Positions 1-33,864 of a DNA stretch of 64,000 nt are shown in pieces (position 1 is the first letter of the stretch; the number at the start of each line of letters is the position of its first letter). The notes beneath the pieces were generated by a model. The model was not told the DNA's origin. It was given only the letters and a program-made list of their open reading frames with translations, and searched no databases. Source of the DNA: Nonomuraea muscovyensis (lineage in GTDB: Bacteria; Actinomycetota; Actinomycetes; Streptosporangiales; Streptosporangiaceae); contig NZ_JACHJB010000002.1 in the NCBI RefSeq assembly GCF_014207745.1, positions 1,550,001 through 1,614,000 of the forward strand, read 5' to 3'. Both the position numbers and the translations under genes were made by a program.

Positions 1-223
1 GCTGGCTGGGGTCGGCGACCTCCCGGGCCAGGTCGAAGCCGCGCGCGTCGCGCAGAGGGTTCTCCTCCTCGAAGTCCCATCTCGCCCGGCGGGCGCGGGC
101 CGCCGAGGCGGCCAGGTAGGCGTTCACCACCTGGGAGGAGGTGACCATCGCGTTGGCGCCCGGCTGACCTGGTACGGAAATGCCGTACTCGGTCTCGATG
201 CCCATCACCCGACGCACCGTCAT
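1..223 (-). CDS. dop: Pup deamidase/depupylase Dop, N-terminal part (cut by window edge)
   Basis: The first 74 codons are visible; the gene runs off the left edge. The product begins [19 protein letters not shown], the start typical of Dop, whose glutamate-rich GIETEYG loop belongs to the ATP/Mg site of this glutamine-synthetase-like fold. Dop converts the C-terminal Gln of Pup to Glu and removes Pup from substrates in the cytoplasm. ATG at 221-223 is preferred because the family starts here. Dop normally sits beside pup and the prcBA genes, which would lie just outside the window. The proteasome ATPase gene is upstream on the same strand but separated by an acyltransferase gene and a terminator. 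Dop rather than PafA is chosen from the N-terminal sequence and the arc linkage. Confidence 0.93.
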
Positions 224-309
224 GCAACATCCTCTGTTCGTCCGGATCTGCCTATCCGCCGTTTATATGCCCGAGCCTATGCCCTTCACAGTGCCCCAGG
301 GTCACAGAG

Positions 310-1440
310 TTATGGCACCGACGCCTTTTCGACCTGTGCGGCGGGAGCCTGGCGGGCGCGGGGTCGTCGGCGTGGCCTGAGGAGGCGCTGGATGGGCCGC
401 TCGGCAAAGGAGTAGACGAGATATGACAGGAGCACGGCAGCCAGCGTGGTGAGCGTGGCGGTGAGCCAGGGCGGCAGCCGGTCGTGCAGCAGCGGGATGA
501 GGGCGACCGCGAGCACGGAGTGGAACAGGTAGAGCGGGTAGGTGGTGCCGCCCAGCGCGGTGAGGGTTCTGGACGGGCGGAGCCGGAAGAGGCCGAGCGC
601 GACGACGGCCATCACGGTGAAGATCGCGGTGACGGTGAGGATGACGCCGGCGTCGGTGACGGGCATGTTGGCGAAGCCCGCGGCGTCGATGCGGCGGTGC
701 ACGCGGTCGAGGGCCGAGTGGATGGACATGGCCCAGCCGGCCACGACGTAGAGCCAGGGTAACCAGGCGTTGCCGTGCTTGTGGATGAGGTAGAGCGCCA
801 TGCCGGCCACGAAGTAGGGGGCGTAGCGGGGCATGAAGACCTCGGTGAGGAGCTCGTGGCCGAGAAGTTCGGCGGCGAGCGCGGCGGCGAGCCAGAGGCC
901 GCAGAAGACCAGGACGCGGGCGTACGTGATGCCGATGATCACGAGGATGGAGATCAGCAGGTAGAACCGCAGCTCGGCCCAGAGCGACCAGTAGACGCCG
1001 GTGGCGTCGGTGACGCCGAACAGGCGCTGCAACATGGTGGCGTTGAGCAGGTAGTCGCCCGTGGAGAGCTTGGGGTCGAGCGCCTTGGCGGCGGTGAGCC
1101 CGTACAGGGCGGCGACGGCGGCCAGGCTCAGCCAGTAGGCGGGATAGAGGCGGACGACCCGCGACCAGGCGAAGGCGCCCAGCCCGCGGCCCCAGGCGCT
1201 CATGAGGATGACGAAGCCGCTGATGACGAAGAACAGCTCGACGCCGAGGATGCCGAGGCCGGCCAGGGGGGCCACGGCGGGGAAGAGCTCGGCGGGCCGG
1301 TCGCCCCATGCGGAGGCGTAGGCGACGAGGTAGTGGAAGGCGAGCACGGCGAGCGCGGCGATGAACCGCAGCAGGTCGAGCTCGGCCAGTCTGCCGTCCC
1401 CCGGGGCGCGCCGCGGCCGGTTGCGGTTGTGCACGGTCAT
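310..1440 (-). CDS. Acyltransferase 3 (OafA/YrhL-type) integral membrane protein
   Basis: A 376-residue multi-spanning membrane protein. The N-terminus reads LDLLRFIAALAVLAFHYLV, the classic acyltransferase-3 motif with Arg and, at the end of the first helix, the conserved His. About ten hydrophobic segments follow and the tail is very Arg/Pro rich. The family moves acetyl or other acyl groups onto extracytoplasmic sugars, lipids or antibiotics; the acceptor cannot be read from sequence. It lies between arc/mpa and dop on their strand, an odd place for an envelope enzyme. A strong terminator separates it from arc, and 86 bases separate it from dop. It may therefore be an insertion into the Pup-proteasome cluster. 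Confidence 0.88.
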   Translation of the reverse strand: MTVHNRNRPRRAPGDGRLAELDLLRFIAALAVLAFHYLVAYASAWGDRPAELFPAVAPLAGLGILGVELFFVISGFVILMSAWGRGLGAFAWSRVVRLYPAYWLSLAAVAALYGLTAAKALDPKLSTGDYLLNATMLQRLFGVTDATGVYWSLWAELRFYLLISILVIIGITYARVLVFCGLWLAAALAAELLGHELLTEVFMPRYAPYFVAGMALYLIHKHGNAWLPWLYVVAGWAMSIHSALDRVHRRIDAAGFANMPVTDAGVILTVTAIFTVMAVVALGLFRLRPSRTLTALGGTTYPLYLFHSVLAVALIPLLHDRLPPWLTATLTTLAAVLLSYLVYSFAERPIQRLLRPRRRPRARQAPAAQVEKASVP

Positions 1441-1559
1441 TGGACGTCACACCCGTCACTTCGGTTCCCGGCAAACCCTGCTTTCACACCTGTCACGCAC
1501 CGGTGTGACAGGGGCTGTTCCGACAGAGTGGCAGGGCTTCAGGCCGGGCGCCGGGCGAA

Positions 1560-1600
1560 CGGAAAGGGCCGCGCGGGGTTCTCCCGCGCGGCCCTTTCCG
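1560..1600. terminator. Strong bidirectional hairpin terminator after arc/mpa
   Basis: A perfect 18-base-pair inverted repeat (arms 1560-1577 and 1583-1600) with a 5-base loop, starting 10 bases past the arc stop codon. The stem is G+C rich at its tip and A+T richer (GGAAA/TTTCC) at its base; no long T run follows, as usual in actinobacteria. It should end arc transcription before the acyltransferase gene. Confidence 0.8.
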
Positions 1601-1610
1601 TCTAAACGTC

Positions 1611-3374
1611 CTACAGGTACTGGCCGGTGTTGGCGACGGTGTCGATGGACCGGCCGGCCTCGGCGCCCTGCTTGCCGGAGACGAGCGTGCGGATGTAGAC
1701 GATCCGCTCGCCCTTCTTGCCGGAGATGCGGGCCCAGTCGTCGGGGTTGGTGGTGTTGGGCAGGTCCTCGTTCTCGGAGAACTCGTCCACGCAGGCCGTG
1801 AGCAGGTGCTGCACCCGCAGGCCCTTCTGGCCGGTCTCGAGGAACTGCTTGATGGCCATCTTCTTGCCCCGGTCGACGATGTTCTGGATCATCGCGCCGG
1901 AGTTGAAGTCCTTGAAGTAGAGGACTTCCTTGTCGCCGTTGGCGTAGGTCACCTCGAGGAAGCGGTTCTCCTCGCTCTCGGTGTACATCCGCTCGACGAC
2001 GCTCTGGATCATGCCGTGGATGGTGGCCTCGGCGGACCCGCTGTGCTCGGACAGGTCGTCCGGGTGGAGCGGGAGGTCCTCGACGAGGTACTTGGAGAAG
2101 ATGTCCTTGGCCGCCTCGGCGTCCGGTCGCTCGATCTTGATCTTGACGTCCAGGCGGCCGGGCCGCAGGATCGCCGGGTCGATCATGTCCTCGCGGTTGG
2201 AGGCGCCGATGACGATGACGTTCTCCAGGCCTTCGACACCGTCGATCTCCGACAGGAGCTGCGGGACGATGGTGTTCTCGACGTCGGACGACACGCCGGA
2301 GCCTCGGGTGCGGAAGATCGAGTCCATCTCGTCGAAGAACACGATCACCGGGGTGCCCTCGGAGGCCTTCTCCCGTGCGCGCTGGAAGACCAGGCGGATG
2401 TGCCGCTCGGTCTCGCCGACGTACTTGTTGAGCAGCTCGGGGCCCTTGATGTTGAGGAAGAAGCTCTTGCCGGACTGGCCGGTCTTCTCCGCGACCTGCT
2501 TGGCCAGGGAGTTGGCGACGGCCTTGGCGATGAGCGTCTTGCCGCATCCGGGCGGGCCGTAGAGCAGCACGCCCTTGGGCGGGCGCAGCTTGTGCTCGCG
2601 GAACAGGTCGGCGTGCAGGTAGGGCAGCTCGACGGCGTCCCTGATCTGCTCGATCTGGCGCGAGAGGCCGCCGATCTCCTCGTAGGAGATGTCGGGGACC
2701 TCCTCGAGCACGAGCTCCTCGACCTCGGACTTGGGGATGCGCTCGTAGACGTAGCCCGAGCGGGGCTCGAGCAGCAGCGAGTCACCGGCCCTGATGGGCT
2801 GGCCGACCAGAGACTCCGCCAGCCGGACGACGCGCTCCTCGTCGGCGTGCGAGATGACCAGGGCGCGCGAGCCCCCGTCGAGGAGCTCCTTGAGCATCAC
2901 GATCTCACCGACCTCTTCGTAGCCGAGTGCCTCGACCACGTTGAGCGCCTCGTTGAGCATGACCTCCTGGCCGCGCCTGAGGTTGTCGACGTCGACGGCC
3001 GGGCTGACATTCACCCGCAGCTTGCGGCCGCCGGTGAACACCTCGATCGTGCCGTCTTCTCGGGCCTCCAGGAAGGTGCCGAAACCGGATGGCGGCTGCG
3101 CCAGCCGGTCGACCTCCTCCTTGAGGGCGACGATCTGGTCCCGGGCCTCCTTCAGTGTGGCGACCAGGCGCTCGTTCTGGCCGGTCACGGCCGCGAGATT
3201 CGCCTGTGCCTCGTGAAGGCGCTCTTCGAGGACCCTGGCCTGACGGGGTGACTCGGCCAGCTTCCGCCTCAGCGCGGTGATCTCCTCCTGCAGGAAGGAG
3301 ACCTGTGTTGAAAGATCAGCGACCTCCCGTTCGCGCTGCGCGGCTCGAGCCTCTGCATCATCGCGAGCTGCCAC
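1611..3374 (-). CDS. arc: Proteasome-associated AAA+ ATPase ARC/Mpa
   Basis: A 587-residue hexameric unfoldase that recognises pupylated proteins and feeds them to the 20S proteasome. Residues 1-95 form the coiled coil that binds Pup. Residues about 97-240 are the tandem OB domains. The AAA+ module follows, with Walker A GPPGCGKT at 273-280 and Walker B VIVFFDE at 343-349. The protein ends in GQYL, the C-terminal motif that docks in the proteasome alpha ring and opens its gate. The start is GTG at 3374, preceded by an almost ideal Shine-Dalgarno AAGGAGGTGA (3381-3390). It is the expected partner of dop at the window edge. Length and motifs match the family in full. Confidence 0.97.
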
Positions 3375-6536: not shown

Positions 6537-8057
6537 TCAGCCGCGGTGGGGCTCGAAGCGCATGGTGCGGGACACGCCCACGCGGACCGTGGTGCCGGGG
6601 GCGATGGTGACGGGCTCGTTGGGCGGGATGTCGTAGAAGTTGGGGTCGCCCGGCGGCTGGATCTGGGTGCCGTTGACCGAGCCGAGGTCCACCAGGTTGA
6701 CGTCCCAGCCGTCGAGCGCGACGCGCAGGTGGCGGCGGGAGACGGAGCCGTCGGGACTGGTGACCTTGGCGGGCCTGGCCGAGCCGCCCGCCACCTCGGG
6801 GGCGCGTTCGGGATCACGGCCGAGGAGGTAGTCGGACTCCAGCGGCAACGCGGTGCCGTCGTCGAGGACGAGGACGCCGAGCGAGGGGCGCGGCCCCTTG
6901 TACGGGACGAGGGTGCGCTGCACCAGGGCGATGCCGCAGACCGCGCAGTAGGACACGCGGGGGTCGTTGAAGTGGTCGTTCTTGCAGTCGACCCCGTAGA
7001 CCAGGGGGCGGTCGCCGTGCTCGGCCTGGTCGTGCTGCGGCTGGCCGGGCTGCTCGTAGGGGTCCTGGGGGCCCAGCGGCTGCGGGCCCGGCTGGTCGGC
7101 GTGGTCGGGCGCCTGCTGCGGGCCGGCGTCGAAGTAGTCGGGCACGGCCGACAGGTGCGGGCCGGGCTGGCCGAAGGGGTCGGGCGGGCCCGGCTGCTCG
7201 TAGTCGCCGGAGGCGGGGCCGCCGCCCGCGGGCGCGGGCTCGTCGAGGCTGGAGAAGGAGCTGTGCTGCTCCTGGCGGTAGGGGGACGGCTCGGCGGCCT
7301 GGGGCCCCGAGGGCGGCCCGGGCTGGAAGCCGTGCTGGGCCGGCGCCGAGTGCTGGCCCGCGGGGAGGCCCTGCGGCACGGGCGGGTGGTCGCCCGACAT
7401 CGGGTAGGGCGGGTTGTTCACGGCGGGCCGCTCGGGGGCGGGCGCGGCCTGGACGGGGTCCGGCGTGGGCTGCACGGGCTCGGGGCGGGCGGGCTCGGGC
7501 GCGGCCTGGACCAGGTCGGGCTCGAAGTGCAGGGCGGTGTTGGGCAGCTCACCGGTGAGCTGGCGGGACGGCGTGCCGGTCTGCTCGCCGAACTCGCCCG
7601 CGAGGCCGGCGCCGTGGACGACGCCGCCGTCGAACCGGACGGCCGGATGTGCCCGCCCGGCGCCGGGCAGGGTGAGCTCGACGCGGGTGACCGGGCCGCC
7701 GATGAGCCGGTCGGCCCAGGTGAGCGAGTCACTGCCGGCCAGGCGGGTCTCGCCGTCGGCGGTGCTGATCGTGGCGGCGGCCGCGCCGCTGACCAGGACG
7801 GCGACACCGCCGTCGCCGACGGGGCCGGCCACGGCGCAGGTGGCGGGGTCGCCGGTCATGTTGGCGGCGAGCACCTGCGCGGCGCGCCGGGCGAGCGCCC
7901 TGCCGTCGCCGCCGGCGGCGACGGTGGAGCGCAGCGCCTCGATCAGGTCACCCGCCGCGGCCTCCCCTGCGTCGCAGGCCAGCAGCAGCCCGCCCAGGTA
8001 GGCGACCAGCCCGTCGCCAGGAAGCGGGCGAACCAGCCCGAAGCCCTGGTCGGTCAT
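6537..8057 (-). CDS. FHA-domain protein with zinc-ribbon motif and long Pro/Gln-rich linker
   Basis: A 506-residue cytoplasmic protein. The N-terminal 150 residues form an unrecognised globular domain. Residues about 165-345 are a low-complexity linker rich in Pro, Gln, Gly and Glu. A short Cys/His motif CKNDHFNDPRVSYCAVC comes next, a probable zinc knuckle. The C-terminal FHA domain keeps the phosphothreonine-binding residues LLGRDPE, SRRHL and GSVNGT. FHA domains dock on pThr proteins made by Ser/Thr kinases, none of which is in the window. Transcription runs opposite to the preceding gene and away from the M50 protease. Confidence 0.85.
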   Translation of the reverse strand: MTDQGFGLVRPLPGDGLVAYLGGLLLACDAGEAAAGDLIEALRSTVAAGGDGRALARRAAQVLAANMTGDPATCAVAGPVGDGGVAVLVSGAAAATISTADGETRLAGSDSLTWADRLIGGPVTRVELTLPGAGRAHPAVRFDGGVVHGAGLAGEFGEQTGTPSRQLTGELPNTALHFEPDLVQAAPEPARPEPVQPTPDPVQAAPAPERPAVNNPPYPMSGDHPPVPQGLPAGQHSAPAQHGFQPGPPSGPQAAEPSPYRQEQHSSFSSLDEPAPAGGGPASGDYEQPGPPDPFGQPGPHLSAVPDYFDAGPQQAPDHADQPGPQPLGPQDPYEQPGQPQHDQAEHGDRPLVYGVDCKNDHFNDPRVSYCAVCGIALVQRTLVPYKGPRPSLGVLVLDDGTALPLESDYLLGRDPERAPEVAGGSARPAKVTSPDGSVSRRHLRVALDGWDVNLVDLGSVNGTQIQPPGDPNFYDIPPNEPVTIAPGTTVRVGVSRTMRFEPHRG

Positions 8058-29817: not shown

Positions 29818-31101
29818 TTAGAGGGCCACCCCGAGCAGGGCGTCGACCAGGTCGCGGACCAGCCGGGGCGCCGCCGCGTCCGTGCCCGCGCCCTCGCCGC
29901 CGGCGGAGCCCGTGCTCTCGGCAGCGCCCGTGCCGGTGGTGTCCGTGCCGTCACCGAGCGCCCGGTGCGTCCAGGCGTCGATCGCGGCCAGCGCGCCCGG
30001 CGCGTCGAGGTCGTCGGCGAGGAGCTCGCGCACCCGCGCCAGCAGATCGCCCGCCGGCGGGCCGGCGGGCAGCGCGACCGCAGCGCGCCAGCGGTCCAGC
30101 CTCCGCTCGGCCGCGGCGAGCTGGCCGGGGGTGTACTCCCAGTCGGCGCGGTAGTGGTGGGCCAGCAGCACGAGCCGCACCGCCATCGGGTCGTGGGCCG
30201 TGCGCAGCTTGGAGACGAACACGAGGTTGCCGCGGGACTTCGACATCTTCTCGCCGTCGAGGGCCACCATGCCGGCGTGCGTGTACGACTTGGCGAACGG
30301 CCACTCGCCGGTGGCGGCGTGCCCCTCGGAGGCGCCGCACTCGTGGTGCGGGAAGATCAGGTCGGAGCCGCCGCCCGCCACGTCGAACCCGGCGCCCAGG
30401 TGGTCGAGCGCGATGGCGGTGCACTCGATGTGCCAGCCGGGCCGGCCCCGGCCCAGCGGTGATTCCCACGACGGCTCGCCCGGCCGTTCGGCCTGCCACA
30501 GCCTCCAGTCGAGCGGGTGGCGCTTGCCCGGCCGGTCGGGGTCGCCGCCGCGCTCGGCAAACAGCTTCAGCATCAGCCGCTCGTCGTAGCCGGACACCTG
30601 GCCGAACTTGGGCGCGTCGGCCGAGCTGAAGTAGACGTCGCCGTCGAGCTCGTAGGTGACGCCCTTGGCCCGCAGCGACTCGATCAGCTCGGCGACCCGG
30701 CCGATCACCTCGGTGACGCCGACGTAGTCGCGGGGCGGCACGATGCGCAGCGCCTCCATGTCCGTGCGGAACAGCTCGATCTCCCGCTCGGCGAGGTCCT
30801 GCCAGGCGACGCCGGTCTGCTCGGCGCGTTCGAGCAGGGGATCGTCGACGTCGGTGGTGTTCTGCGTGTAGTGCACGTCGTGACCGTTGTCGCGCCAGAC
30901 GCGGCCCGCCAGGTCGAAGGCGAGGTAGGTGTTGGCGTGGCCGAGGTGGGTGGCGTCGTACGGGGTGATGCCGCAGACGTACATCCTCGCGGTGGGGCCA
31001 GGATCGGTCTGGCGCACCTGCCCGGTGGCGGTGTCGTGGAGCCGCAGCGGGACGCCGGCGCCGGGCAGGTCGGGGATGTTCGGGGCGGACCACGATCTCA
31101 T
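29818..31101 (-). CDS. mshC: Cysteine:glucosaminyl-inositol ligase MshC (mycothiol synthesis)
   Basis: A 427-residue class-I aminoacyl-tRNA-synthetase-like enzyme that joins Cys to GlcN-inositol using ATP, the third step to mycothiol. It is told from CysS by CGITPYD at 43-49 (CysS has CGPTVY), with zinc ligand Cys43. The HIGH motif is HLGH at 52-55 and EKMSKSRG lies near 290. Later zinc ligands are in HIECTA and FPHHECG. Near residue 395 there is a Gly/Thr/Ala-rich insert before a final helix. It is the last gene of a same-strand cluster. Confidence 0.96.
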
Positions 31102-31111
31102 AGCTTTGAGC

Positions 31112-31771
31112 CTATCTGTCCCGGTCGGCTGTCAGGTCGGTGAAGTCGTACGTCACACCGTCGGTGTCCAGCGTGACCCGCATGACCGACAGCGAGGCGA
31201 ACACGCGCCCGCCGGGCGTCTCGTGCCGGACGAGAAGCGCCTCGGGGGCGTTGGACGGCTCGCCGGTGACCAGCCCGTGCCAGCCGCCGGCGGACGGGGA
31301 GGCGGCGAAGCGGGGCAGGTGGGCGGCCACGCGCGGGTGTGCCGGGTCGAGGCCGGTGTTGACGATCATGCTGGTGCCGTCGGGCAGGTCAGCGGTGGTC
31401 AGCCGGGCGCCGTCCCAGCTCGCCAGGCGAGCCCGTCCGGGCTCGGCGAGCACGAGGTGGAACGGGTCGTAGCGGGCCAGGTCGGCCTCGGGCAGCGCAC
31501 CGGTGGCGGCGGCGCGCAGGGCCAGGTCGCCGCGGGAGGTCTTGACGGTCTCGGGGGCGGGGGTGCCGTGGCCGTTCAGCAGCGCCGCGGCGCGGCGGGC
31601 CGCCGGGTGGACGGCGAGCCAGGTGCCGCCGGCCTTGAGGTCGCGCCCGCCGAGCACGCCCGGGTGTTCGGGCCAGTGTTCGCCCGGCCCCTCCCAGGGC
31701 CGGTCGGTGTACTCGTCGCGCACGCCCAGGAGGGTGAGTGGCCACCCCGTTCTTACGATCACGGTGCACAT
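31112..31771 (-). CDS. NRDE/TANGO2-family protein
   Basis: A 219-residue Ntn-like-fold protein. The family opening Met-Cys-T-x-I/V is present (MCTVIV), with Cys2 the presumed N-terminal nucleophile. The family motif NRDE is altered to VRDE ([12 protein letters not shown]). Later conserved LNG and GDL segments are present. Members are linked to heme or lipid metabolism in eukaryotes, but bacterial function is not known. ATG 31771 is required to place Cys at position 2; longer in-frame sequence is rejected. It lies 10 bases upstream of mshC. Confidence 0.85.
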
Positions 31772-31794
31772 GGGGCAAAGCGTAGTAAACCGGA

Positions 31795-32559
31795 TCAGAT
31801 GGGCGGCCAGGGGATGGCCGGCCAGTCCTCCGACGGGTAGGGGTGCACGCCGGTGTCGAGCAGCCGCCGCACCCGGTGCCAGGTGGCCTCCACCTCGGCC
31901 GACGTCAGCAGATCGCGCAGCCTGCGGCCCAGCGCCCCCGACTCCAGGTCGCGTTCGAGCTTGGCGAGCACCCCCACCGCCTCGCGGGAGAGCGGCTTGC
32001 CGCGCCACTGCCAGAGCACGGTGCGCAGTTTGTCCTCGGTGGCGAAGCAGACGCCGTGGTCGACCCCGTAGACGTGGCCGGTGGGCAGCGGCAGCAGGTG
32101 GCCGCCCTTGCGGTCGGCGTTGTTGACGATGGCGTCGAAGACGGCCATCCGGCGCACCACGGGGTTGCGGCTGCGCACCAGGCGCATGAGGTCGATCTCG
32201 CGTTCGGTGTCGATCCACAGCTGGCACATGCCGGGCCCGAACGGGCCGTCGCGGTAGACCGTCGGCGGGACGATGCGCCAGCCGGTCGCCTGGGACACCT
32301 CGAACGCCGCCACCTCACGGGCGGCGAGGGTGCCGTCGGGGAAGTCCCACAGCGGGCGCTCCCCGCGTACGGGCTTGTAGACACAGGCGGCGGTGCGCCC
32401 GCCGAGCGTGACCGAGCAGTAGAGGGTCATGTTGGTCGCCTCCACCAGGCGGCCCGCCACGTCCAGGCGCCCGTCGCGGAGCAGTTGGAGCGCCCTGTCG
32501 TCGTCCATGACCGGCGCGTGTGAGGGCCTGACCACCGGCTCGCTCTCCGGCGCGCTCAT
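31795..32559 (-). CDS. SCO1664-family protein, kinase-like fold
   Basis: A 254-residue cytoplasmic protein of an actinobacterial family that resembles a reduced phosphoinositide 3/4-kinase. The candidate ATP lysine is in CVYKPVRGERPLWDFP. A catalytic-loop-like FDAIVNNADRKGGHLL and a metal-binding-like GVDHGVCF follow. First member of the stop-start overlap with the DUF3090 gene (4 bases). The DUF3090 protein, this protein and the phosphatase form a conserved trio in actinobacteria; substrate unknown. Confidence 0.87.
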   Translation of the reverse strand: MSAPESEPVVRPSHAPVMDDDRALQLLRDGRLDVAGRLVEATNMTLYCSVTLGGRTAACVYKPVRGERPLWDFPDGTLAAREVAAFEVSQATGWRIVPPTVYRDGPFGPGMCQLWIDTEREIDLMRLVRSRNPVVRRMAVFDAIVNNADRKGGHLLPLPTGHVYGVDHGVCFATEDKLRTVLWQWRGKPLSREAVGVLAKLERDLESGALGRRLRDLLTSAEVEATWHRVRRLLDTGVHPYPSEDWPAIPWPPI

Positions 32560-33104
32560 GAAGCCGCCTCACCCCCGCGGTATCCGTTGAGTCGGACGCA
32601 GACGTGCCCTTCGGCGTCGAGCGGCTGCCCGCACAGGGGACACGGCGGCCGGCCGGCCGCGACGAGCCGCAGCGCCCGCTGGGTGAACGCCCGCGCGGCC
32701 CCCGCGCTGATGCGCACCCGGAGCATGGCCGGCTCGGGCGCGTCGAGATCCTCGTCATCGACGATCTCCTGCGCCTCGATCACCACCTGAGCCGTCTCCG
32801 GGTCCCACGCCAGTGCCATGGTGCCGACCCGGAAGTCCTCGGCCAGCGGCACGTCGAGCGGGTCGTCGTCGGTCAGGTCGGCGGGTGCGAGAGCGGGCAC
32901 CTGGGTGATGCCCCCGCTGCGGCGCAGCACCTCGTCGAGCAACTCGTCCAGCCTGCCCGCGAGTGCGGCGACCTGGAGTTTCTCCAGCGCGACCGTGGTC
33001 AGTCTGCCCTCGGCTCTGGCCTGCAGAAAGAAGGCTCGGGCGCCCGGTTGCCCCAGGGCACCGGCCACGAACCTCTCTGGTGGGTCGTAGTCGAAGACCG
33101 GCAT
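32556..33104 (-). CDS. DUF3090 family protein
   Basis: A 182-residue protein of the second trio family. It starts PVFDYDPPERFVAGALGQPG, has a long helical middle and an acidic loop (DDDPLDVPLAEDF), and ends with a CPLCGQPLDAEGHVC motif that looks like a zinc ribbon (two CxxC-like sites with His). No enzyme motif is visible. It is coupled by 4-base overlap to the kinase-like gene and lies 9 bases after the phosphatase gene. Confidence 0.88.
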   Translation of the reverse strand: MPVFDYDPPERFVAGALGQPGARAFFLQARAEGRLTTVALEKLQVAALAGRLDELLDEVLRRSGGITQVPALAPADLTDDDPLDVPLAEDFRVGTMALAWDPETAQVVIEAQEIVDDEDLDAPEPAMLRVRISAGAARAFTQRALRLVAAGRPPCPLCGQPLDAEGHVCVRLNGYRGGEAAS

Positions 33105-33113
33105 AGCCTGACC

Positions 33114-33800
33114 TTACGTGGTCCCGGGTCCGCCGCCGACGGCGGCATCGCTCCCGGTGATGTTTTCTCCCCCGTCTTTCTCCTCCGAATCCTCGGGGAG
33201 CCGCAATTCCCCCATATCGTTAAGCCTGAGAAGAAAGGGGCGCAAGGGGGCATAGCGAATGATGGTGAGAGCGCCCGGATCAGCAGTTATCCGCTGAAAG
33301 TGATCGAGATGCAGGCCCAGCGCGTCCGCCACGATCGCCTTGATCACGTCGCCGTGGCTGCACACCAGGTAGACAGCCTTCTCCCCGAGGCGACGATTCC
33401 AGTCGCGGACCGCGGCCACGGCCCGGTGCTGCATATCGGCCAGCGACTCCCCTTCCGGAAATGTCGCCGCACTGGGATGGGCCTGCACGACCTGCCACAG
33501 GGGGTCCTCGGCGAGCTCCTTCAGCGGCCGCCCGGTCCACCCCCCGTACCCGCACTCGACGAACCGCTCGTCGACCAGCACGTCCCTCCCGCCTCCGGCC
33601 GCGACCGCGCCGGCCGTCTCCACACACCGCTCCAGCGGGCTGGAGACGATCGCGTCGAGCCGGATGCCGGCGAGGCGCCCGGCGAGCGCGGCGGCCTGGG
33701 AGCGGCCCGCGTCGCTCAGGTGGACTCCGGGCGTGCGGCCGGCCAGGACCGGCCCGGTGAGGGCCGTGAGCCCGTGGCGGGCGAGAAGCAGCGTCGTCAC
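33114..33800 (-). CDS. Histidine-phosphatase family protein (MSMEG_4193 type)
   Basis: A 228-residue phosphoglycerate-mutase-like phosphatase. The RHG motif LLLARHGLT gives the phospho-His at residue 9. IVSSPLERCVETA supplies the second Arg, and the late His is in VCSHGDVIKAI. The C-terminal 35 residues are polar and disordered. GTG 33800 is chosen because the family starts at TTLLLARHG. First gene of the trio-NRDE-mshC unit. Substrate unknown. Confidence 0.9.
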   Translation of the reverse strand: MTTLLLARHGLTALTGPVLAGRTPGVHLSDAGRSQAAALAGRLAGIRLDAIVSSPLERCVETAGAVAAGGGRDVLVDERFVECGYGGWTGRPLKELAEDPLWQVVQAHPSAATFPEGESLADMQHRAVAAVRDWNRRLGEKAVYLVCSHGDVIKAIVADALGLHLDHFQRITADPGALTIIRYAPLRPFLLRLNDMGELRLPEDSEEKDGGENITGSDAAVGGGPGTT

Positions 33801-33864
33801 GGGCCCAGTGTCGCAGGCGCGGATCACGGCGTTTCACCGGCCCGGACGGTAACCTGGCGGGACC

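Follow-up and report, generated by a model that had tools for sequence, protein, structure and literature searches.

Three adjacent genes in Nonomuraea muscovyensis, encoding a SCO1664-type kinase-like protein, the zinc-ribbon protein DUF3090 and a histidine phosphatase of the MSMEG_4193 family, may well form a cassette for reversible phosphorylation that is not specific to mycothiol. We put this reading, with the roles proposed below, at roughly 55%. The trio lies just upstream of mshC, the gene for the mycothiol cysteine ligase, in a 64,000-nucleotide stretch of a 9.2-Mb genome (G000:C2:1550001-1614000 in our genome set); this whole stretch is referred to here as the window. The copy in the window is typical of this known but unexplained cassette, whose distribution extends across Actinomycetota and Chloroflexota.

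In the proposed cycle, the SCO1664-type protein would be catalytically active as an ATP-dependent kinase and belong to the atypical class that includes type II phosphatidylinositol 4-kinases (PI4KII), Fam20, and HipA, and the histidine phosphatase encoded in the same operon would take the phosphate off again. DUF3090 would be an acidic zinc-ribbon partner, produced together with the kinase, that either presents the substrate or serves as the substrate; a protein substrate would be our first guess. The cassette would be old in both phyla, and mshC would have joined it downstream in the window's class.

Organization and distribution of the cassette

All five genes of the locus are on the minus strand and either overlap or lie at most 23 bp apart, in the order given by the initial annotation: the phosphatase (33114 to 33827), DUF3090 (32556 to 33104), the kinase (31795 to 32559), a TANGO2/NRDE-type protein with an N-terminal Cys (31112 to 31771), and mshC (29818 to 31101). 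That annotation had placed the start of the locus correctly at 29818, whereas its end is at 33827 and not at 33800. The phosphatase and DUF3090 genes are separated by 9 bp, DUF3090 and the kinase overlap by 4 bp, and the remaining gaps are 23 bp (kinase to TANGO2/NRDE) and 10 bp (TANGO2/NRDE to mshC). Since the trio genes overlap or are 9 bp apart, we read them as one operon. Each trio protein scores above the cut-off of its curated model (phosphatase, TIGR03848, 290.9 versus 203.85 bits; DUF3090, TIGR03847, 232.5 versus 117.25 bits; kinase, TIGR03843, 334.6 versus 172.4 bits), and Pfam agrees for the phosphatase (PF00300, E value of 1e-46) and for DUF3090 (PF11290, 220.8 bits).

Distribution was assessed in 159 Actinomycetota genomes, drawn evenly, and in 151 Chloroflexota genomes. 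Presence lists were compiled by hand, and the P values for co-occurrence given below ignore the relatedness of the genomes. The kinase was found in 73 of the 159 Actinomycetota (70 above the cut-off), and DUF3090 was found in the identical 73 genomes, so the shared arrangement of the trio is far beyond chance. A curated model exists for each of the three families, whose co-occurrence in actinobacteria the initial annotation had noted. In Chloroflexota, the kinase is present in 84 of 151 genomes (82 above the cut-off) and DUF3090 in 99. These counts include a few kinases that are below the cut-off or fragmentary (G010, G073, and G084 in Actinomycetota; G232 and G241 in Chloroflexota).

The window's phylum contributed 53 distinct kinase loci, and all three genes are present at 51 of them; the two loci without DUF3090 are L017, which is at a contig end, and L048. 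In all 50 measured cases, no more than 100 bp separates DUF3090 from the kinase (a 4-bp overlap is the median, and 31 of the 50 pairs touch or overlap); at L069 the distance is 939 bp. Among the best 80 of 592 kinase loci (here, the named loci), the fetched flank includes the complete trio at 65 and a kinase-phosphatase pair lacking DUF3090 at 10; the other 5 are short of a gene or cut by a contig end. Furthermore, when 40 stretches of up to 20 kb were clustered together with the window, only the trio recurred across lineages in the 41 neighborhoods; the next clusters occurred in at most 10 of the 41, and the neighbors of the trio differ from lineage to lineage.

The predicted kinase

The AlphaFold2 model of the window kinase has a mean predicted local distance difference test (pLDDT) score of 90.7, and type II PI4-kinases rank first among its structural matches (Foldseek E value of 3.7e-7; VIA-align Z score of 18.6 for PI4KIIbeta, with a root mean square deviation [rmsd] of 3.5 and 221 residues aligned). 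The next kinase folds by VIA-align are Fam20 (Z of ∼16), CtkA (14), and HipA (11); a family that does not appear among the matches of such searches is not thereby excluded. The kinase sequence profile also reaches PI4KIIbeta (E value of 1.9e-4 for the whole chain and 0.014 for the best stretch), and 46 of the 53 family members match PF00454 at an E value of ≤0.01, with HipA_2 matched by 3 members and Fam20C by 1. A search of solved structures with the single kinase sequence gave no match.

Conservation in the family is high, with median pairwise identities of 41 to 48% among 53 aligned kinases and 27 invariant positions, which include K62, N147, D149, R150, K151, H154, D167, R179, T180, and W183. 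K62, in a YKP motif (32374 to 32376), is the presumed ATP-binding lysine. The putative catalytic loop, N146-N-A-D149-R-K-G-G-H154 (32098 to 32124), is aligned by the profile with the NTDRGNDNW segment of PI4KIIbeta, NNADRKGGH being paired with RNTDRGNDN. The D167-H-G169 stretch (32053 to 32061), in which G169 is kept in at least 90% of the 53 sequences, presumably binds metal. Placed on the predicted fold, this set of residues looks catalytically intact, which suggests an active enzyme.

With type II PI4-kinases leading the fold matches by about 2.5 Z units over Fam20, the protein could be a native bacterial phosphoinositide kinase whose substrates are phosphatidylinositol-type lipids and whose action the phosphatase reverses, although we consider this unlikely. 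Protein and sugar kinases belong to the same fold class. Type II PI4-kinases also carry a palmitoylated, CC-rich cysteine motif, and no such CC pair occurs in the window kinase sequence. A lipid substrate would fit the report of the orthologous phosphatase Rv2135c from membrane fractions (PMC3866925; here and below, statements credited to published reports refer to the parts of those reports consulted). It would also fit the frequency of inositol-1-phosphate synthase (Ino1), which was found in 70 of the 73 trio-bearing Actinomycetota versus 45 of the other 86. However, Ino1 is present in 75 of 84 Chloroflexota with the kinase and in 64 of 67 without it (P = 0.23), and the 9 kinase-bearing genomes with no Ino1 match are possibly incomplete drafts. 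The association is thus strong in Actinomycetota and absent in Chloroflexota, so Ino1 co-occurrence does not discriminate and was rejected as a sign of dependence on inositol. Among the papers listed by a literature search on bacterial phosphoinositides, none concerned bacteria by title.

Phosphatase and DUF3090

The phosphatase is above the cut-off of its family and retains all four catalytic residues. R17 and H18, from the RHG motif (R17, H18, and G19; 33771 to 33779), are kept in 32 of 35 aligned phosphatases, and E91 and H158 are kept in 35 of 35. The orthologue Rv2135c is described as a tetrameric acid phosphatase without mutase activity, with Km values of ∼8 to 14 mM for the substrates on which it acted (PMC3866925). 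Given these Km values, none of those substrates is likely to be the natural one, and by analogy with Rv2135c, the window protein is predicted to be an active phosphatase.

The initial annotation had called DUF3090 a zinc-ribbon partner, and the alignment agrees: the C-terminal ligands C155-x2-C158-x8-H167-x-C169 (32598 to 32642) are invariant in 51 of 51 sequences. The model of the protein (pLDDT of 89.6) is closest by VIA-align to PUR-alpha repeats (Z of 9.2 to 9.7; for the best, rmsd of 3.2 with 112 residues aligned), with Whirly and MRP1/2 at 5.3 to 6.0. These matches would fit a cassette that acts on nucleic acid or in DNA repair and in which DUF3090 binds the nucleic acid; we regard this as the least probable of the readings weighed here. 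Chains of other kinds score 6.6 to 6.7, above Whirly, and Foldseek found nothing under an E value of 0.001. DUF3090 is also strongly acidic (median isoelectric point of 4.5 and median net charge of −14 across 51 proteins), which argues against nucleic acid binding and for a role in protein interaction. Searches of solved structures gave an E value of 0.1 or worse with the single DUF3090 sequence and no match with the profile.

A cluster of genes of the uracil-DNA glycosylase (UDG) type, one member of which is confirmed by Pfam, occurs in 22 of the 80 named neighborhoods and would suit a repair function, but neighbors vary by lineage, and this is a raw count. We presume that Rv2134c and MSMEG_4192 are DUF3090 proteins. 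Among bacillus Calmette-Guérin (BCG) mutants with altered sensitivity to rifampicin below the MIC, Rv2134c is listed at −1.42, adjacent in the table to rnhC and uvrA (PMC11329110), which would also suit a repair function; MSMEG_4192 was overrepresented in a dibucaine screen (PMC10127668) and was found in a ClpC1 interactome (PMC10433963). Elsewhere, DUF3090 appears in a list as a putative metal-binding protein (PMC9425974) and is placed among syntenic orphan clusters in Streptomyces (PMC13118837). In a search of open-license literature that used narrow terms in part, neither the kinase nor DUF3090 was the subject of any functional study listed.

As a separate observation, repair-type genes lie beside or near the trio in several lineages, at L043, L068, L082, L076, L095, and other Acidimicrobiia-type loci; at L036 and L041; at L094 and L097; and at L034, L047, L065, and L066. 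They include a UDG superfamily member identified by Pfam at L095 and Ogt-like, Fpg/Nei-like, and RecO-like proteins identified by eye.

Relationship to mycothiol

The linkage of the trio to mshC is real but local to one class. MshC (TIGR03447; 622.7 bits in the window versus a cut-off of 485.1) is above the cut-off in 13 of the 159 Actinomycetota, all from the window's class, and the trio is present in every one of them (P = 2e-5). In 12 of these 13 genomes, mshC lies 31 to 1,604 bp downstream of the kinase. The initial annotation had proposed a cycle possibly acting on an inositol-type molecule linked to mycothiol, and Chandra and Chater (2013) saw SCO1664 as invariably closely linked to mshC and possibly part of a mycothiol network (PMC4255298). 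Below the cut-off, MshC-like ligases at 369 to 446 bits occur in 18 more genomes, 17 of them with the trio. Counting every MshC-like ligase above 365 bits, a line set by eye with G058 (345 bits), G124 (331), and G146 (318) just beneath it, 30 of 31 ligase-bearing genomes have the trio.

The converse does not hold: 60 of the 73 trio-bearing genomes have no MshC above the cut-off, and 43 have no MshC-like ligase even above the lower line. For the 17 MshC-like ligases below the cut-off in trio-bearing genomes, the gene is 108 kb to 2.7 Mb from the kinase in 6 cases and on a different contig in the other 11. G008, a genome of the window's own class, also has mshC on a separate contig. Among 20 named kinase-bearing genomes that were checked, MshC is above the cut-off in 4 (Arthrobacter, Kocuria, Propioniciclava, and Citricoccus) and in 0 of 10 Chloroflexota, a phylum in which more than half of the sampled genomes have the kinase.

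Thus, mshC is nested inside the distribution of the trio and not the reverse. Because the trio stands beside mshC only in some bacteria, its function is probably something other than mycothiol synthesis. Judged by mshC alone, the trio is widespread in the absence of mycothiol genes, and the link to mycothiol drawn in the initial annotation therefore fails to that extent. A mycothiol-specific trio was rejected on the basis of this mshC distribution, although mshC itself occurs only with the trio in the sample (13 of 13). That the trio phosphorylates an inositol-type mycothiol intermediate is, in our estimation, very unlikely.

The ligases below the cut-off (G016, G031, G039, G080, G102, G134, and 12 others) may be unrecognized thiol or amide ligases, as may a second ligase at 354 to 386 bits in 3 of the 10 Chloroflexota checked (G162, G164, and G165).

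Possible loss and exchange of partners

Eleven kinase-phosphatase pairs lack DUF3090 (L048, L081, L083, L088, L096, L102, L111, L118, L126, L133, and L134). Ten are named loci, from Arthrobacter, Kocuria, Citricoccus, and Propioniciclava, and the remaining one (L048) is a second copy in G008. A gene for an AAA ATPase is divergent from the pair in 11 of 11 cases, with a VWA gene called next to it in all but one; at the remaining 70 named loci, the AAA gene is in the flank of L094 only. Furthermore, a strong VWA match was obtained in 52 Actinomycetota, of which 51 have the trio and one (G052, 82% complete) does not. These observations raise the prospect that the cassette regulates a chaperone pair formed by a MoxR/chelatase-like AAA ATPase and a VWA protein, which we hold to be distinctly unlikely.

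The 11 kinases without DUF3090 fall into one clade of 12 rows (support of 100) with L108, where all three genes are present; the arrangement therefore probably arose in a single event and was kept over two families. Moreover, 22 of the 73 trio-bearing Actinomycetota have no VWA gene, and when 20 VWA loci were taken from other genomes (an AAA gene is present at 17), no trio gene was found among the five genes on each side. In the 63 Chloroflexota genomes with VWA, DUF3090 is present in 54 (P = 1e-5), in keeping with such a connection, but the kinase is present in 39, with no association (P = 0.24). Weak VWA matches were left out of these counts (G030 and G105 in Actinomycetota; G190, G230, G264, G272, G320, and G328 in Chloroflexota). 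Dependence of the trio on the AAA-VWA pair is strong in Actinomycetota and absent for the kinase in Chloroflexota. For that reason, dependence was not accepted, and we keep the AAA-VWA pair only as a lead. Rv0958/MSMEG_5512 is a candidate orthologue of the AAA protein. A test of MSMEG_5512 is reported to have shown no DNA association (PMC7092591).

A second possible exchange concerns the phosphatase. Five of the 20 Chloroflexota genomes that have DUF3090 without the kinase (L213 to L217), and a second DUF3090 copy in G243 (L232), have as the next gene in the same direction one for a protein of 170 to 201 amino acids with a CxGGxGRTG signature. Two of these proteins were scanned, and both match DSP/PTP phosphatase models; neither the kinase nor the histidine phosphatase is at these six loci. 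Hence, DUF3090 may also be able to partner a different type of phosphatase. At eight other kinase-less DUF3090 loci, a hydroxyacid dehydrogenase-like gene, identified by eye, precedes DUF3090, and no trio-type histidine phosphatase is labeled alongside. In favor of the cassette, a phosphatase persists where a partner is missing, both in the pairs without DUF3090 (10 of 80 named loci and L048) and, as a protein with a DSP/PTP signature, in 5 of the 20 Chloroflexota genomes that have DUF3090 but not the kinase.

Actinomycetota and Chloroflexota might share a native phosphorylation cycle, phosphoinositide-like or acting on protein, with a PI4KII-type kinase and interchangeable partners (a histidine or a DSP/PTP phosphatase; DUF3090 or an AAA-VWA chaperone). 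We offer this as a tentative proposal that we consider unlikely.

Weighing the proposed phosphorylation cassette

The phosphorylation cycle suggested by the initial annotation is made plausible by the kinase fold, the invariant catalytic residues, the coupling to the phosphatase at 51 of 53 loci, and the activity of Rv2135c, and it is in Chloroflexota that the coupling becomes looser. At 40 Chloroflexota kinase loci, chosen nonrandomly from the 84 kinase-bearing genomes, DUF3090 is beside the kinase at 31 and the histidine phosphatase at 16, all 16 of which also have DUF3090; neighbors were counted if on the same strand and within 2.5 kb, and the phosphatase count covers genes near the kinase, those elsewhere in the genomes lying outside the search. 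Kinase-less DUF3090 is seen in 20 genomes, and 5 of the 84 kinase-bearing genomes have no DUF3090. The bond of the kinase with DUF3090 is therefore firmer there than its bond with the phosphatase, which weakens the idea of a cycle.

Several features of the kinase weigh, like this looser coupling, against a reversible phosphorylation cassette. The window protein reaches 22.4 bits against PF00454 and not the gathering score of 27.1. FAM20A is among the profile matches, and the fold class includes pseudokinases. A shared kinase fold does not reveal a substrate. What is observed comprises the genes, their coupling and distribution, and the conserved catalytic residues in a predicted kinase fold, whereas kinase activity, its opposition by the phosphatase, the role of DUF3090, and the order of events are inferences.

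The cassette is widely retained, with the kinase and DUF3090 kept in nearly half of the sampled Actinomycetota and the kinase in more than half of the sampled Chloroflexota, and this wide retention, together with the well-kept kinase sequence, points to a core function. If the proposal of exchangeable partners is true, a PI4KII-type cycle of this kind would be an undescribed signaling or quality-control circuit common to two phyla. Once the trio is separated from mycothiol, the question becomes what this bacterial PI4KII-type kinase phosphorylates. What makes the system interesting is its PI4KII-type fold and the two cases of apparent exchange, which also provide genetic handles: kinase-phosphatase pairs that lack DUF3090 and neighbor AAA and VWA genes, and DUF3090 genes that neighbor a phosphatase of a different type.

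Neighboring genes and other features of the window

The TANGO2/NRDE-type protein matches PF05742 at 60.9 bits (gathering score of 22.6; E value of 2.8e-16), begins with MCT, and has no NCBIfam match; no relative of its gene occurs in the 40 other clustered neighborhoods. Three genomes of family f4 have a CysQ/inositol monophosphatase-like protein, identified by eye, in the position between the kinase and mshC. A scan for promoters and terminators found no promoter-like site and one terminator, at chance level, and an Rfam scan of the window gave no match above the gathering score. PADLOC anti-phage models matched the three trio proteins of the window in 0 families at an E value of 0.01, and a known anti-phage defense system was rejected on this absence of matches.

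At the left edge of the window (1 to 3374), ∼28 kb from the trio, are a Dop/PafA-like fragment, identified by eye, and an ARC-type proteasomal ATPase with Pfam OB domains. ARAGORN called a tRNA-Val of 91 bases (7346 to 7436, plus strand) inside a predicted minus-strand gene for 506 amino acids (6537 to 8057); the tRNA and the gene are probably not both real.

Comparison with known systems

The window trio is above the cut-offs of TIGR03843, TIGR03847, and TIGR03848 and has the common gene order of these families, from which it differs in nothing basic; what sets this copy apart is the TANGO2-like gene before mshC. With type II PI4-kinases, nearly the whole kinase domain aligns with the predicted model and the catalytic loop is equivalent, whereas sequence identity is 17 to 18%, His replaces the last Asn of NTDRGNDN, and lipid activity is not known for the window type. 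The Fam20, CtkA, and HipA kinases share the fold class of the window kinase but score below PI4KII against it; Fam20 acts in the secretory pathway, and HipA is a toxin. We take TerY-P to be the name for linked triads of a vWA protein, a kinase, and a PP2C phosphatase. Triads of the TerY-P type resemble the present system in that a vWA protein is linked to both a kinase and a phosphatase, but they use a PP2C phosphatase (PMC7159879), whereas here the kinase is PI4KII-like, the phosphatase is of the histidine type, and the link to vWA is seen only in the lineage without DUF3090.

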